From a virus, in IMG/VR virus record IMGVR_UViG_3300010885_011310, positions 1 through 62,795 of that record: 62,795 nt of DNA, one strand, 5' to 3'. The position numbers and the translations under genes are program-made. Below are positions 16,685 through 49,901 of this stretch, one piece after another (position 1 is the first letter of the stretch; every line of letters begins with the position of its first letter). A model generated the notes under the pieces. It was not told the origin of the DNA. It did no database searches and saw only the letters and a list, made by a program, of their open reading frames with translations.

Positions 16685-17608
16685 ATGGCATATATATCTC
16701 AATATAAATATTACGAGAACGCAGGAGTTGCTCCTACAAATGAAAATTGGGGGTCTTACCAATATGTAAGTCTTTTTGATATTGTAAATAACTTTTTATT
16801 AATGTATAGTGGTAATCACTCATTAGTTAATAATGAAGAGCGTTACAAGATTTTGTTTCACGCTAAGCGTGCCATTCAAGAATTAAACTACGATGCATTT
16901 AAAGAGATTAAGGTATTACAGTTAGATGTTGATAGTTTACTTAGATTTATTTTACCATCTGATTATGTGAATTGGGTTCGTATATCTTATTACAAAGATG
17001 GTTGGATTAGACCACTTACTGAAAACATTCAGTTGAATAGTTCTCAGGAATATCTTCAAGACGAAACAGGAAAAATTTTATTTGATGAAGAAGGTAATAT
17101 ACTTAGACCTGAATTTTCTGAAATAGATTATGATAGAATAATTGGACAACAAAAAAGTATATACTTAAATTCTGGAAATCAGTTTGATGGTGTTGAAGGA
17201 TACAACTACGATGGTAGATGGTACTTTGAGCATTCTATTGGTGCTAGATATGGATTGAATACAGAGACTGCAAACTTTAACCCTACATTTAGAATTGATA
17301 ATAAGGCAGGTGTTATAAACTTCAGTTCAGATATGCAAGGTCAATCTGTTATAGTAGAGTATGTATCTGATGGTATGGAGCAGGGAGATGATTCAAAGAT
17401 TAGTGTTAATAAACTATTCGAGAAATATGTATATGCCTATATCCAATATGAAATATTAAATAGTAAACTTGGTGTTCAAGAATATATAGTAGCTAGAGCA
17501 AGAAAAGATAAATCTGCATTGCTTAGAAATGCAAAAATCAGAATGAGTAATATCCATCCGGGTAGATTGCTTATGAATTTGAGAGGTCAAGCTAAGTGGA
17601 TTAAATAA
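16685..17608 (+). CDS. Head-tail connector (ring protein 2-like)
   Basis: A 307-residue protein with an early helical segment (FHAKRAIQELNYDAFKE) followed by FILPSDYVNWVRIS, a pattern typical of the second neck protein in crAss-like and related podoviruses. It is followed after one base by the muzzle protein gene. Confidence 0.75.
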   Translation: MAYISQYKYYENAGVAPTNENWGSYQYVSLFDIVNNFLLMYSGNHSLVNNEERYKILFHAKRAIQELNYDAFKEIKVLQLDVDSLLRFILPSDYVNWVRISYYKDGWIRPLTENIQLNSSQEYLQDETGKILFDEEGNILRPEFSEIDYDRIIGQQKSIYLNSGNQFDGVEGYNYDGRWYFEHSIGARYGLNTETANFNPTFRIDNKAGVINFSSDMQGQSVIVEYVSDGMEQGDDSKISVNKLFEKYVYAYIQYEILNSKLGVQEYIVARARKDKSALLRNAKIRMSNIHPGRLLMNLRGQAKWIK

Positions 17609-17609
17609 T

Positions 17610-20600
17610 ATGGCAAACATTACTAGAAATTTTACAGCAGGGCGAATGAATAAAGTCGTTGATGAACGACTTATACCTAATGGAGAATATATTGATGCAC
17701 TTAATATTCGTATGGGTTCTACGGAATTATCTGAAGTTGGTGTTATTGAAAACTCAAAAGGTAATACTGTTTTAACTGCGTTACAATACGATGGTGCTAC
17801 TCTTAGTTCTGATGCTAAATGTATTGGGGCTTTAGAGGATGGCTCTAATGAAACTATATATTGGTTTGTTCATGATAGTAATTTTGCTACAAGTCCTACA
17901 GGTAAGTTAGATTTAATATGTTCTTTTGATACTAAGAGTAGTATTCTTACATACCATATAATTAGTATTAATGATGGAAGTAATGTAAATACTACATTAA
18001 ATTTTAATCCAACATATTTAATTACAGGAGTTGATTTAGTTGAAAACTTATTATTCTTTACAGATGATTACAATGCACCTAGAAGAATAAATATAGTTAA
18101 GAATTATGCTAATCCTTCAGGTGGTATAGATGGGTTTAGTAATGAATCTATTTTGGTTATTAAGAAACCACCTATCGAATCACCATCTATTTCACCTATT
18201 GCAACTAATGGTCAAGAAAATTTCTTAACAGATAATTTTATATGCTTTGCATATAGATATAAATATGAAGATGGTGAATATTCTGCAACATCTCAATGGT
18301 CAGAACCTGCATTTGTTCCTAAACAATTTAAGTTTAGTACAGAAAGTTACTTGAATGAAGGTATGACTAATCTTGCTAACTCAGTAAATGTAACATACAA
18401 TACAGGAGATTCTCTTGTTGTTGGTATTGACTTATTATTTAAGGAAGCAGGTGGTAATATAATTAAAGTAATTGAAAAATTAGATAAAGCTAATTTAGGT
18501 TTACTAGATAATACAGATTATAGTTATACATTTACTAATAGTAAAATATTTACAGTATTACCTGAGTCTGAAATTTTAAGGCTCTATGATAATGTACCTA
18601 GATTTGCTAAGGCTCAAACAATAATGGGCAATAGATTAATGTATGGTAATTATGTAGAAGGATATGACCTCATTGATTCAAATGGTAATCCAATAAAATT
18701 AGAATACACAGTAGATTTAATTACTGAAGATATAGGTCTTGCAGATATTACTACAACAAATGAAAATGGTGACTATACAATAGATGTACCACAAACTATT
18801 ACAGATTCAGTATTATCAATAGATTTAGATGGCGTTGAATTACTTCAAGGCTCATCAATAAATATTGATATTACACTTACACATGAGTCATTCTCAGGAG
18901 ATACACCATTTCCAACAGAAGTTACAGATAATGTAACAGAAGGTTTTACATTCTTCTTACCAAGAAATTATACTTCTGTATATGACTTAGCGAGTAGTGA
19001 TGAGTTTCAATTAGCTATAGGAACATCAGCAAATATTCAACCTGTTTCAACGGCATGTGATGGTGTAACATTTACAGATAGAATAAATTGTATACTTCCT
19101 AATAATTTAGATGCATTAGAAAAGACTGCAAGTGGTGTGTCTGCTGTAGGTCAAGGTATTGGTATTTTAACAACACCTGCAAGTAATAGTATTGGATTGC
19201 AGTTTGTTTCTATGAAATATGTAGATGATATTGTTACTCCTACGCAGTCTGTATATGAGTATTACTCAATAGTATTTGCAGATGTTACATTCCAAGAAGT
19301 AGGTAATACGCAAAGCTTACATAGTAATAGAGATTACGAAATAGGTATAGTTTATATGGATGATTTTAATCGTGCAACTACTGCATTGGTTAGTCCTAAT
19401 AATACTGTACATGTTCCATGTGGAAATTCAAGTACAAAAAATTATATAAAGGTTAATATACCTTCTACTCAACATCCACCATATTGGGCAACTAGATATA
19501 AGTTTGTAATTAAAGCTAATGCTGAAAATTACGAAACTATATATACAAATCTTTTCTTTAAGAATCCTGAAACAAATGAAGTATGGTTTTATTTAGAAGG
19601 GGAGAATGCTCGTAAGGTTCAAGTTGGAGACAGATATATAGTTAAAGCAGATACTGATGGACCTTTATTAACTTGTGCTAATGCAACAGTTTTAGCTAAA
19701 GAATCTCAAGCAGAAAATTTTATTACACCAATAGAGGACGTAGCAGTTCCTGCAGGTGTATATATGAAGATTAATCCTAATAGTTTTTCTGCTGTAACAA
19801 ACCCTGAAGCTGTAATAGCACCGGGTTCACAAACTGTAGGTGCATCAGCAGGTGGTAATTTTGCTAAGTTAAACTACCCAATGAATTTATATAGAGGAGC
19901 AGGTTTTGACCCTATGAATCCTTTATGGGAATATGAAGATTATACTGTTCCTGCAGGTAGTTTAATCAGAATGAATATTGATTGGAATAGAACAGGTGTA
20001 GGTAATAAATGTGAAGAAAGAGGATTTTTATTTAATAAAGACCTTACATCATTAAATAGTTATGAAAATTCTGAAGATTGGTTTAATGGAGAAAATGTAG
20101 CAGGATTATTACCTTCAGGATATTCAAAAGATGGAACTACTTCTATAGAATATATTGCTACTAATGGTATATTAAATACGTATAGTTTTGATATAAACTA
20201 TATGCAATTTTATAGAGACCCAACTACTAATCAACTTGTACTTCAAATGACAACAGGTAAGAGTTGTACAGGTGCAAAAACTCAACAAAGAGCATATACG
20301 GTTACTGCAGACATAGAAGTATTCAGAGCATTAAATACAATTATATTTGAAACAAAAGCTACTGAAACTTTACCTGATGTATTTTTTGAAAACAATTTAT
20401 CATTAGCTATTACAAATGGTAATCACGAAGGTAATATTCAAAACCAAAATATATCTACAGGAGTATCAGCAATTATAAATCCTGAGTTCTTTAACTGTTT
20501 TGCATTTGGTAATGGAGCAGAGAGTTACAAGATATTAGATTCAATAGTAGGTAAAACATTTAACTTAGGTAATAGAGTAACTACTACTTCTGCATTTAAC

Positions 20601-45239: not shown

Positions 45240-45292
45240 TGGTAGTCAGGATAGGAATCGAACCTACACATCGCCATTACTACGACCTGACT
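45240..45292 (-). ncRNA. tRNA-like minihelix: acceptor stem, D-loop-like linker, T-arm and CCA, no anticodon arm
   Basis: On the minus strand AGTCAGG (45292-45286) pairs perfectly with CCTGACT near the 3' end, giving a 7-bp acceptor. Next to it is a 5-bp T-stem (GTAGG/CCTAT, one G-U) with a canonical TTCGATT loop, and the 3' end is ACCA. The two stems stack to 12 bp as in a tRNA. Only 18 bases separate acceptor and T-arm, and they contain TAATGG, which resembles a D-loop GG that could meet the T-loop. There is no room for an anticodon arm. It lies 15 bases after a stop codon inside the leftward operon. Confidence 0.7.
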
Positions 45293-47193: not shown

Positions 47194-47475
47194 TTAATTT
47201 AATAAGCTGTTATCAGGTGGCATAACTCCACCCAATGCATGCTCGAACATACTTTGGTTAATTGTGCTGTGTATCTTTTGTACACACATGTAAAGGATTT
47301 CTTCGTCGGTCATCTGTTCAATTACCAACTCGCACAACTCACTAATCTTGTGCTTGTCGCTTTTTAAATACTCTACACTAATTGATGCTAACTTGTTAGC
47401 CAAGTCATCAACACTGCTTTTAGACCCGATAGCTTTCAGTGTGCTCTCGCAGTCGTGGTTAAATTTGATTTTCAT
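47194..47475 (-). CDS. Hypothetical 93-aa protein
   Basis: An all-helical protein. It is the first gene downstream of the hammerhead ribozyme at 47500-47552, so cleavage would leave it with a 70-base leader. Function unknown. Confidence 0.58.
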   Translation of the reverse strand: MKIKFNHDCESTLKAIGSKSSVDDLANKLASISVEYLKSDKHKISELCELVIEQMTDEEILYMCVQKIHSTINQSMFEHALGGVMPPDNSLLN

Positions 47476-47499
47476 TTGTTAAATGATTTAGGTTTACGA

Positions 47500-47552
47500 T
47501 TCCGTTTCGTCCTTTTGGACTCATCAGTCAGGGCACTCACCCCAAGACGGAA
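47500..47552 (-). ncRNA. Hammerhead ribozyme, type III (open stem III)
   Basis: On the minus strand the full catalytic core is present: CTGATGA (47527-47521 region), stem II GTCC-AAAA-GGAC, then GAA. Stem III pairs TTCCGT (5') with ACGGAA (3'), 6 perfect bp. Stem I is TTGGGG...CCCTGA with two wobbles and a 6-base loop. The cleavage triplet is GTC; C17 is the complement of 47546. It lies 40 bases downstream of the amidotransferase-cyclotransferase stop and 24 bases before the next start, with a palindrome just upstream. Confidence 0.9.
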
Positions 47553-47556
47553 GGGC

Positions 47557-47574
47557 TGTGTCTTTAAAGACACA
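47557..47574. repeat. Palindrome family copy (18 bp perfect)
   Basis: TGTGTCTTTAAAGACACA between the hammerhead and the upstream stop codon. Flanking AAGGG and CCCTT can extend the stem, giving a longer hairpin. Confidence 0.75.
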
Positions 47575-47592
47575 AACCCTTTCGCAGGAAAG

Positions 47593-48684
47593 TTACGGAT
47601 TAAACACAGCAACCTCACTCTCCTTGAACCAAGCCCCACAGCTTTGGCAATGGTAATTTGAAAACCCATCGTGCTCCAAGTCATTATAACAATCAATGCA
47701 CAAAGGTATCTCATTCTCTATATTAAAGTCCTCTTCTATCGCATCTTCAAACTCATCGTACTCGTATGGCAATGTCTTCCAAGTACCCAACTCAAAGTTA
47801 CTAAACCCATATTTATTATAGCCATAGTTTTTAGGCTGTGGCTCATAGGTTTCGTGCAATACATCTGTCGGCTTTATGTCTTTAGGATTGAAGTATATCC
47901 AACACATCAACTCACTACCACTTTTATCTAGCTTAATAGGTATCTGCTTACGCACGTACCAATTTGGATGTCCCTCCAAGCCATCCAAGTCCTTCAGCGT
48001 GCTGTCGGATACCTTGAACACATCGACTACCACATTGTGCCCCAATCCTTTCTTCTCAACCAAGTAAGGTAGCCCCTGAACCAACAGGGGATACTTGTCT
48101 TTGGTCTTGCCTGAACCTACGTGCTTAGATGAAGTCAGGTACGAATAATAATTGCTCTTGCCCTTCTTTAGCGTGCCATATACAGCAATCAAGTTATCCT
48201 GTAACACGTTGTCCTTGCTGTACCACACTCCGTCCTTGTAAGTAAATAAATGTCTGTTGTAGATTTGAAATGTACGATTACGCACATTGATACTCACGAA
48301 CCGAACCAAGTGCTTTGCTAACTCCTGCTTCCATAGATGTCTCTGAATTGAACCTAGACTCTGTGCCAATACTTTGGTGTCACAGTGGTCCTTGCAACCA
48401 AGCCCCTGAATAGTACCGTTCATCATCAGGTACTCGTGCTTCTGCACGCCACATCTAAATGGGTGTGTGTTATCCAAGCCTATCTTCCCGACGGTAGCAT
48501 ACCTGAAGTGGGCAATAAAGGGACGACTAGTTTCTAGCACATTGTACTCGCTTGATTTGTGATACGTTATCTCGAACGTATCTAGCCATACAACCCCCAA
48601 GCCATGAGGATTAATAAAGCCTGCTGTTTTTGCTACGCCTGCAGGTAGCCTGTTGTTTTTTTGTTTTACAATAATTAAACACAT
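47593..48684 (-). CDS. Class II glutamine amidotransferase fused to gamma-glutamylcyclotransferase and zinc ribbon
   Basis: A 363-residue three-part protein. Residues 1-~150 are an Ntn-type class II glutaminase: Cys2 directly after Met, HFRYAT near residue 60, and MMNGTI. Residues ~165-270 are a gamma-glutamylcyclotransferase (AIG2-like): AVYGTLKKGKSN for the glutamyl-binding loop and LDGLEGHPNWYVR with the acidic active region. The C-terminus has a zinc ribbon (C-x2-C, C-x2-C near residues 330-350). An amidoligase is encoded upstream in the operon at 49902; these three activities are known to cluster in phage and bacterial peptide-modification loci. It would release ammonia from Gln and open or close gamma-glutamyl links. 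Confidence 0.85.
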   Translation of the reverse strand: MCLIIVKQKNNRLPAGVAKTAGFINPHGLGVVWLDTFEITYHKSSEYNVLETSRPFIAHFRYATVGKIGLDNTHPFRCGVQKHEYLMMNGTIQGLGCKDHCDTKVLAQSLGSIQRHLWKQELAKHLVRFVSINVRNRTFQIYNRHLFTYKDGVWYSKDNVLQDNLIAVYGTLKKGKSNYYSYLTSSKHVGSGKTKDKYPLLVQGLPYLVEKKGLGHNVVVDVFKVSDSTLKDLDGLEGHPNWYVRKQIPIKLDKSGSELMCWIYFNPKDIKPTDVLHETYEPQPKNYGYNKYGFSNFELGTWKTLPYEYDEFEDAIEEDFNIENEIPLCIDCYNDLEHDGFSNYHCQSCGAWFKESEVAVFNP

Positions 48685-48722: not shown

Positions 48723-48748
48723 AGAACCCTAGTTAAACATAATTTAGA

Positions 48749-48779
48749 CAAAGATACGTAATAAGTTAGACAAACACAA
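48749..48779 (-). promoter_or_regulatory. Leftward Bacteroidetes-type promoter
   Basis: CAAAGATA (48749-48756) is TATCTTTG on the minus strand; a TTG complement lies at 48777-48779, 20 bases upstream. It overlaps the end of the 54-aa gene and reads into the gene starting at 48684, with a ~60-base leader. Confidence 0.6.
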
Positions 48780-48930
48780 CTTTTGCTAAAAATTTATTTC
48801 TTTCCCTGTCAGGATAAATACTTGCAACCCTAGAAAATACTCTCTCGATTGCTTCCCATTTTGTGCATGCGTATATCTTACACATGAACTCGCCACCATA
48901 GTAGATAGCGTACATTGTTTGCTGTTCCAT
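48766..48930 (-). CDS. 54-aa small protein downstream of hammerhead
   Basis: ATG at 48928-48930, TAA at 48766-48768. The N-terminus MEQQTMYAIYYGGEF, with a strand, then an amphipathic WEAIERVFSRV helix, gives a coherent small alpha/beta protein. Hammerhead cleavage would leave a 19-base leader. Function unknown. Confidence 0.6.
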   Translation of the reverse strand: MEQQTMYAIYYGGEFMCKIYACTKWEAIERVFSRVASIYPDRERNKFLAKVVFV

Positions 48931-48943
48931 AACTTTTTAATTT

Positions 48944-49013
48944 GGTTAAGACGCACGTGGTACATTCGTTGCACTCACGTACGTTTCGGGTATTAAACCC
49001 TCATCAGTTAACC
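48944..49013 (-). ncRNA. Hammerhead ribozyme, type I (open stem I)
   Basis: On the minus strand: stem I GGTTAA (49013-49008) pairs with TTAACC (48949-48944), 6 perfect bp. The core CTGATGA follows, then stem II GGGT-TTAAT-ACCC, then GAA. Stem III is 9 bp (ACGTACGTG with CACGTGCGT, one G-U) closed by a 16-base loop. The triplet GTC ends at C17, the complement of 48950. The TAA stop of the upstream gene lies inside stem I, so translation to the end would melt that stem. Cleavage separates this gene from the next start at 48930. Confidence 0.9.
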
Positions 49014-49250
49014 TTCGTCTGTACTATACAAGTCCTCCCAACCATCGGCTGCATACCTTGAGTACCTCCTGCGTTCTTTCTGTCTTTCGACGAACACGAA
49101 AGGCTCTATCGTGTAGAAATTATTAGGGAAATACTCCCCCATTTTCTTAACAAATTCGTGTGCCTCCTGTAGCGTTAATTTTTCGCCACCATTTTCTAAT
49201 TCGAAATAGCCATTGCAGTCCACCATTACGTTATAAAATTTTTGTTCCAT
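49008..49250 (-). CDS. Hypothetical 80-aa protein, stop codon inside ribozyme
   Basis: The start at 49250 (MEQKFYN) is preferred by similarity of start context to neighbours; an in-frame ATG at 49277 is possible. The protein has a central helix LTLQEAHEFVKKM and a basic RQKERRRYSRY tail. Its TAA forms part of hammerhead stem I. Function unknown. Confidence 0.6.
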   Translation of the reverse strand: MEQKFYNVMVDCNGYFELENGGEKLTLQEAHEFVKKMGEYFPNNFYTIEPFVFVERQKERRRYSRYAADGWEDLYSTDEG

Positions 49251-49825: not shown

Positions 49826-49870
49826 TAGTGCCCCTGTGCTGACTCGAACAACACTACAACCATTAGGGGC
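49826..49870 (-). ncRNA. Possible second tRNA-like minihelix (T-arm plus acceptor-like stem)
   Basis: On the minus strand GCCCCT (49870-49865) pairs with AGGGGC near the 3' end, enclosing a 6-bp stem with a T-loop-like TTCGAGT loop (GTGTTG/CAGCAC). Stacked, the stems give 12 bp, as in the element at 45240, and the linker also starts TAATGG. The 3' end is ACTA rather than ACCA, and an alternative GTAGTG/CACTAC pairing exists, so this is less certain. Confidence 0.4.
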
Positions 49871-49888
49871 TGTGTCTTTAAAGACACA
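49871..49888. repeat. Palindrome family copy (18 bp perfect)
   Basis: TGTGTCTTTAAAGACACA, directly 5' (leftward sense) of the T-loop element and 13 bases after the amidoligase stop. The flank toward the T-loop element (AGCCC) matches the copy at 47557. Confidence 0.75.
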
Positions 49889-49901
49889 AACGTGTAGGGG
49901 C

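Follow-up and report, generated by a model that had tools for sequence, protein, structure and literature searches.

A type I hammerhead ribozyme as probable self-cleaving punctuation between early genes of a Bacteroidota-type phage

A hammerhead ribozyme that spans a gene junction, with the stop codon of the upstream gene built into one of its stems, raises the question of what a self-cleaving RNA does at such a position and whether translation has a part in it. Such an element lies on the minus strand of a virus record from IMG/VR, a 62.8-kb stretch of DNA (62,795 nucleotides) that was analyzed in full and is here called the window. Terminase, portal, and virion genes are encoded on the plus strand; the minus strand has mostly small genes and genes of replication type. 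The terminase is 78% identical to that of the uncultured podovirus MW202828, 46% identical to those of cultured Flavobacterium elemo phages, and 32 to 38% identical to those of Cellulophaga and Tenacibaculum phages. Given that these terminase relatives come from phages of Flavobacterium, Cellulophaga, and Tenacibaculum, the host is most likely a Bacteroidota bacterium. Two related loci belong to metagenome-assembled genomes that carry the labels Cytophagales and Flavobacteriales.

That hammerheads occur between phage genes is already known from a 2011 survey by Perreault and colleagues (PMC3088659), and what is said of it here refers to the accessible part of its text. Several prophage hammerheads in that survey flank single genes or short blocks, they are active in vitro and in Escherichia coli, and the authors proposed that long transcripts are thereby cut to gene-length mRNAs. 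The HHphage hammerhead of haloviruses HF1 and HF2 lies among early genes, 13 nt before a start codon, and a transcript 5' end maps to its cleavage site (PMC3088659). The same text left open what hammerheads do in phages.

Anatomy and neighbors of the type I hammerhead

Read on the minus strand from 49013 to 48944, the element runs GGTTAA CTGATGA GGGT TTAAT ACCC GAA ACGTACGTG ... CACGTGCGT C TTAACC. The structural scan gave a stem I of 6 bp (GGTTAA/TTAACC), a stem II of 4 bp, and a stem III of 9 bp, with every core base in place, namely, CUGANGA ... GAA ... UH together with the A15.1-U16.1 and 10.1-11.1 pairs. In both the scan and RNAfold, stem I is open and stems II and III are closed by loops, which is the layout of type I. 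The minimum-free-energy and centroid structures from RNAfold are both the hammerhead fold (-28.4 kcal/mol, z = -5.07), and 0 of 200 shuffled sequences folded as well. C17 is position 48950, with cleavage predicted between 48950 and 48949. As a control for chance, the identical scan was run on 4.9 Mb of simulated order-2 Markov sequence and returned two matches, neither of them type I. By its sequence, then, the element at 48944 to 49013 is a complete type I hammerhead, and the full core and the three stem lengths reported in the initial annotation agree with the scan and with RNAfold alike.

That annotation had also proposed a covariance search with the Rfam type I model as a check and the lack of a match as grounds for rejection. 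RF00163 gave no match at 48944 to 49013, and RF00008 gave only 14 bits; two other phage members of the class reach 29 to 30 bits against RF00163, for which the cutoff is 34, and a match to that model is a curated score that carries no biochemical criterion. The miss is a failure of sensitivity. Since Rfam is insensitive to the type I class found here, the search proved a poor test. Comparison with relatives was more informative. All core positions are intact in the 18 aligned type I members, and the stem pairs are formed in 100% of cells; because these members were found with a pairing-based scan, the covariation is informative and the 100% pairing is not. The alignment holds 63 double-change cells, against 17 in shuffles, and 10 of the 12 pairs change on both sides. 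Loss of pairing in related phages, which had been put forward as evidence against the ribozyme, was thus not what was found: pairing is kept in 18 of 18, with covariation. The loop UNAAU and an A on either side of stem I are conserved as well. A pseudoknot in which loop II pairs with the 3' tail is perfect in the window (UUAAU/AUUAA), yet across 161 members it occurs in 20%, against 24% with swapped tails, and was rejected.

The gene upstream is an open reading frame of 89 amino acids on the minus strand (80 from the first ATG, 49008 to 49250), and a search of IMG/VR for close relatives of the 80-residue protein returned none. Its TAA at 49010 to 49008 forms the last three bases of GGTTAA and so makes up the second half of stem I on its 5' side. 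On the other side, the predicted cut leaves a 19-nt A-rich leader (UUAACCAAAUUAAAAAGUU, 48931 to 48949, minus strand) on the downstream mRNA, ahead of the ATG at 48930 that opens a small reading frame of 54 amino acids (48766 to 48930, minus strand). Both of these features, the upstream stop within stem I and a cut that parts two genes 19 nt ahead of the next ATG, had been pointed out at the start; the type I hammerhead, the stop in stem I, and the separating cut recur at more than 100 other junctions.

A second hammerhead, overlooked in the initial annotation, follows in the same window. It is of type III (47499 to 47553, minus strand), with a predicted cut at 47546/47545 and its 3' edge about 24 nt before an ATG at 47475. 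Against RF00008 it scores 44.4 bits (E = 1.9e-6), under the 48.5-bit gathering score, and its core is intact. A hairpin, GGGTTTGTGTCTTTAAAGACACAGCCC (47553 to 47579, minus strand), adjoins it and is predicted to form the 3' end of the upstream mRNA. Between the two hammerheads lies a 363-amino-acid gene (47593 to 48684, minus strand) whose product has a gamma-glutamyl cyclotransferase domain and in part matches class-II glutamine amidotransferase. By eye, a Bacteroidota-like promoter motif (TTTG ... TATCTTTG) was seen near 48745, within 48740 to 48770 on the minus strand, a position between the two hammerheads and upstream of the cyclotransferase gene; not all expression would therefore hang on processing.

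Relatives and the geometry of their junctions

The 363-amino-acid cyclotransferase gene, used as a query, brought up 90 related loci. Covariance models built in this analysis were run over 92 related loci, and, counting sound E-values, they gave 171 type III and 29 type I hammerheads, all 200 of which lie on the gene strand. Type III is present in 39 and type I in 11 of 45 records, almost all of which are about 60 kb long. A strict DNA pattern describing the type I class matched at least 120 stretches of IMG/VR, with at least 137 distinct complete ribozymes and more than 130 further junctions. The terminases of these pattern-matched records, among the matches listed, are 27 to 77% identical to that of the window or are unmatched. 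In three related phages (L151, L153, and L135; records G072, G074, and G064), the terminase gene contains one in-frame TAG, for which recoding of TAG or an insertion is possible.

Both types of hammerhead are also found in a cultured phage, Flavobacterium phage elemoA_7-9A (MT497017.1). Its type I hammerhead is at 17280 to 17350 on the minus strand (61.8 bits), where a TAG at the edge of stem I closes a reading frame of 21 amino acids and the next annotated coding sequence starts at 17267; its type III hammerhead is at 19085 to 19137 on the minus strand (42 bits). The hypothetical protein annotated opposite the type I hammerhead (17275 to 17382, plus strand) is probably spurious. The Cellulophaga and Tenacibaculum stretches that were searched for hammerheads gave no match.

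To count junctions independently, we grouped them into clusters by the C terminus of the upstream protein. In 113 of 125 type I clusters among the matches listed, the stop codon ends between -6 and +10 relative to the ribozyme edge, most commonly at 0, +1, +6, or +10. Where stem I is GGTTAA, its TAA is often the stop; where stem I lacks TAA, as in GGCATA and GGTTTA, a TAG straddles the ribozyme edge. The offset of +10, seen in 21 type I clusters among the matches listed, makes the UGA of the catalytic CUGA the stop codon. Frames are used unevenly (63:44:18 among the matches listed, p = 5e-6), and the one frame without an early stop in the type I ribozyme is either avoided or closed just before the ribozyme. 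From the biased frame use and the early stops it follows that ribosomes would be kept from translating through the type I core.

The type III junctions are built differently. There the stop codon lies 7 to 75 nt upstream of the ribozyme (median by cluster, 34 nt), with overlap in 0 of 90 clusters, and the gap holds a hairpin, typically GTGTCTTCAAAGACAC with further pairs, adjoining the ribozyme. The median minimum free energy of the gaps is -15.4 kcal/mol, against -6.1 kcal/mol for shuffled sequences, and a stem of at least 6 bp lies within 3 nt of the ribozyme in 88 of 102 cases, versus 18% at random positions. Stem III itself has the same hairpin sequence in several type I members, so that, together with the type III hairpin, the 3' end of the upstream mRNA would carry a hairpin in both types. 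The 16-nt hairpin GTGTCTTCAAAGACAC is in addition repeated at very many junctions in most loci, also at junctions without a ribozyme, with both its sequence and its pairing kept. Because the sequence is kept, and not only the pairing, a protein or RNase may recognize it.

Downstream, the arrangement is much the same in both types. The median distance from the 3' edge of the ribozyme to the next ATG is 16 nt in type I and 22 nt in type III, and the leaders are 88% and 82% A+T, respectively, with 2% G. Shine-Dalgarno-like motifs occur in 4 of 189 leaders. Leaders of this kind are the type favored by initiation in Flavobacterium johnsoniae (PMC6847099).

Other elements in the same slot

The sequence after the 317-amino-acid gene of the window was considered as another ribozyme, and this was rejected: Rfam has no match there, and the sequence is a tRNA-like minihelix (49830 to 49870, minus strand), made of an acceptor stem, a linker with AUGGU, and a T-arm. 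It is preceded by the usual hairpin, which contains GTGTCTTTAAAGACAC and lies immediately 5' of it (49871 to 49892, minus strand). The gene itself gave no match in Pfam; by eye it is amidoligase-like, an identity that we do not claim. A second tRNA-like element (45244 to 45292, minus strand) has a 7-bp acceptor stem, an 18-nt linker, and a T-arm, with an ATG 22 nt past its 3' edge. Neither element has an anticodon arm.

In general, the minihelices have an acceptor stem of 6 to 7 bp, a linker of 9 to 12 nt with AUGGU, and a T-arm loop of the form TTCGANT. They thus have the acceptor stem stacked on a T-arm with a TTCRANY loop, a property for which the scan partly selected. A model of the element gave 38 matches (E up to 0.5) in the 92 loci, 36 of them on the gene strand in their own loci, plus that of the window itself; a scan match in locus L012 was left out as the 3' half of a real tRNA-Arg. 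The elements are not ordinary tRNAs, in that ARAGORN calls none in the loci tested. Longer tRNA-like relics, ranging from near-complete to minihelix, lie at the same junctions (L027, L026, L050, L014, and L059). The material suggests that the minihelices derive from tRNAs through loss of arms, and they are possibly an undescribed class of RNA. The GG in the linker would imitate the GG of the tRNA D-loop, which contacts the T-loop, and, judging from their build, the minihelices are probably substrates of RNase P, cut by the enzyme of the host. A fourth kind of element is the twister-P1 ribozyme, found in two phages that also have type I hammerheads (L141, 1247 to 1308, plus strand; L098, 7657 to 7721, minus strand), in each case about 20 nt before an ATG.

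These elements replace one another at orthologous junctions. After a 204-amino-acid gene, there are 4 type I hammerheads, 7 type III hammerheads, and 3 minihelices, and 60 of 74 junctions have a bare hairpin or nothing. The junction after the 317-amino-acid gene has type III in 69 cases and type I in 1, with the minihelix in the window; that after the cyclotransferase gene has type III in 45, type I in 1, and a minihelix in 4. Since many orthologous junctions have a hairpin only or nothing, cutting would be dispensable at any given junction. That unrelated elements, each with a known or likely RNA cut, share one slot is the best reason to regard cutting as their function.

A proposed role in mRNA end formation and its alternatives

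We consider it probable, at roughly 0.77, that the type I hammerhead serves as self-cleaving punctuation at gene junctions of an early operon, splitting a polycistronic RNA into separate mRNAs. As judged by sequence, the element at 48944 to 49013 and its relatives are one recurring system. That its geometry is fixed, and that different elements take each other's place at a given junction, points to a single definite job, mRNA end formation. The ribozymes are likely to be active, since comparable hammerheads of phages cleave in vitro and in E. coli and, in the halovirus, a transcript 5' end coincides with the cleavage site, as far as the accessible text of the survey goes (PMC3088659).

From the ribozyme anatomy, covariation, strand bias, geometry, and exchange of elements, we infer the following course of events in the cell. 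The ribozyme would fold once RNA polymerase leaves the gene and would cut after C17. The upstream mRNA would then end in the closed stems II and III of the ribozyme and be protected by a hairpin, and the downstream mRNA would have a 5'-OH at its start, followed by an unstructured, A-rich leader of standard form and about 20 nt in length, which would suit translation by ribosomes that do not use Shine-Dalgarno pairing. At type III junctions, a separate hairpin ahead of the ribozyme would give the same outcome, and elsewhere the slot would be taken by twister ribozymes or by tRNA-like minihelices, the latter probably processed by the RNase P of the host. Because the type I stop codon lies within or next to stem I, elongating ribosomes would be kept out of the ribozyme, and folding and termination would be mutually exclusive at any moment.

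The initial annotation had gone further and made cleavage depend on translation. A ribosome at the stop in stem I would block folding, cleavage would occur only if the upstream gene is not heavily translated, and cutting would report translation status and set downstream expression. The type I geometry speaks for such a switch: among the matches listed, the stop ends between -6 and +10 of the edge in 113 of 125 clusters and is the UGA of the CUGA core in the 21 at +10, and with a ribosome on such a stop, stem I and the core would both lie beneath it, so that folding would have to wait for its release. There is a measured analogue in the 3' untranslated region of turnip yellow mosaic virus (TYMV), where a ribosome at a stop codon inside a fold unfolds it, and about 16 nt downstream of the stop falls within the ribosome footprint (PMC6265322). 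The TYMV sensor resembles type I in having the stop codon built into the fold, but it belongs to a plant RNA virus and does not cleave itself. A steric clash between the type I ribozyme and a terminating ribosome is likely; any regulatory role for it is hypothetical. Type III hammerheads sit at the same kinds of junction with overlap in 0 of 90 clusters and swap with type I at orthologous junctions, and, because 7 to 75 nt separate them from the stop, coupling to translation is not needed by the system overall. Overlap is in any case expected if compact genomes end a reading frame as late as the core allows, and the frame bias fits exclusion of ribosomes from the ribozyme equally well as it fits coupling. 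The type III data thus argue that translation coupling is not the common purpose of the system, and we regard the switch as rather doubtful. As a tentative proposal, the two ideas may be combined, with interchangeable punctuation parts in a large group of Bacteroidota phages (hammerhead types I and III, twister-P1, and RNase P-cut minihelices) and a ribosome-gated cut in type I, which would pack stop codon, 3' hairpin, cut site, and leader start into about 70 nt.

The type I ribozymes might instead be mobile or selfish inserts, their stops merely closing the frame in which they landed and their place at junctions a by-product. The class found by pattern is near-constant in sequence (GGTTAA stem I), follows many unrelated genes, and supplies the stop codon at most junctions, as such inserts might, but we find this unlikely: the frames are nonrandom (63:44:18 among the matches listed, p = 5e-6), all 200 hammerheads in the 92 loci lie on the gene strand, and neither the distance of 12 to 23 nt to the ATG, nor the type III hairpin rule, nor replacement by unrelated tRNA-like and twister elements would be expected. 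Retrozymes have a pair of hammerheads flanking a segment. Hammerhead pairs also flank one or a few genes in phages, and the accessible part of the 2011 survey considered an outcome in which the RNAs give rise to circular RNAs, ligation products, or freed small RNAs instead of separate mRNAs (PMC3088659). Here the flanked segments are ordinary reading frames with start codons at a fixed distance, and Perreault and colleagues, in the same text, sought spliced or circular products and found none; this outcome is improbable, and circular RNA from hammerhead pairs found no support. Least probable of all, and very much so, is that the hammerheads are decayed or inactive relics. The Rfam type I model does give no match, but the core is intact, the stems are paired in 18 of 18 aligned members, there is covariation, and more than 130 further members have the same core.

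Punctuation of transcripts by RNA folds has parallels elsewhere. In mitochondrial transcripts, tRNA-like folds between genes are signals for processing by RNase P; here the elements are truncated minihelices, and they have their slot in common with self-cleaving ribozymes. In insulators of the RiboJ type, an engineered hammerhead before the ribosome-binding region gives a standard 5' leader whatever lies upstream. RiboJ is engineered and has a downstream hairpin, whereas the phage hammerheads are natural and would also form the 3' end of the upstream mRNA. Like the prophage hammerheads of the 2011 survey, several of those found here enclose one gene or a short block of genes in a phage genome; unlike them, as far as the accessible text describes them, the present class recurs systematically throughout a broad range of phages and combines a stop in or beside the type I stem I, a hairpin before type III, a fixed leader of 16 to 22 nt, and exchange with tRNA-like and twister elements (PMC3088659). 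The HF1 and HF2 hammerhead differs in its archaeal host, compared with the presumed Bacteroidota host here, and in that a relation to an upstream stop is not described in that part of the source. In the literature searched, which covered few subscription journals and preprints, we found no report of the stop-overlap rule, the hairpin rule, the constant leader, or the exchange of hammerheads for tRNA-like and twister elements.

The analysis provides a model sensitive to a class missed by Rfam, and it puts more than 100 ribozymes on hand for the study of competition between ribosomes and ribozyme folding. A job in mRNA end formation is testable in a cultured pair, Flavobacterium phage elemoA on strain BAL314. 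The phage system would be a natural counterpart to engineered ribozyme insulators: in Bacteroidota-type phages, one long transcript probably cuts itself into single-gene messages with standard ends.
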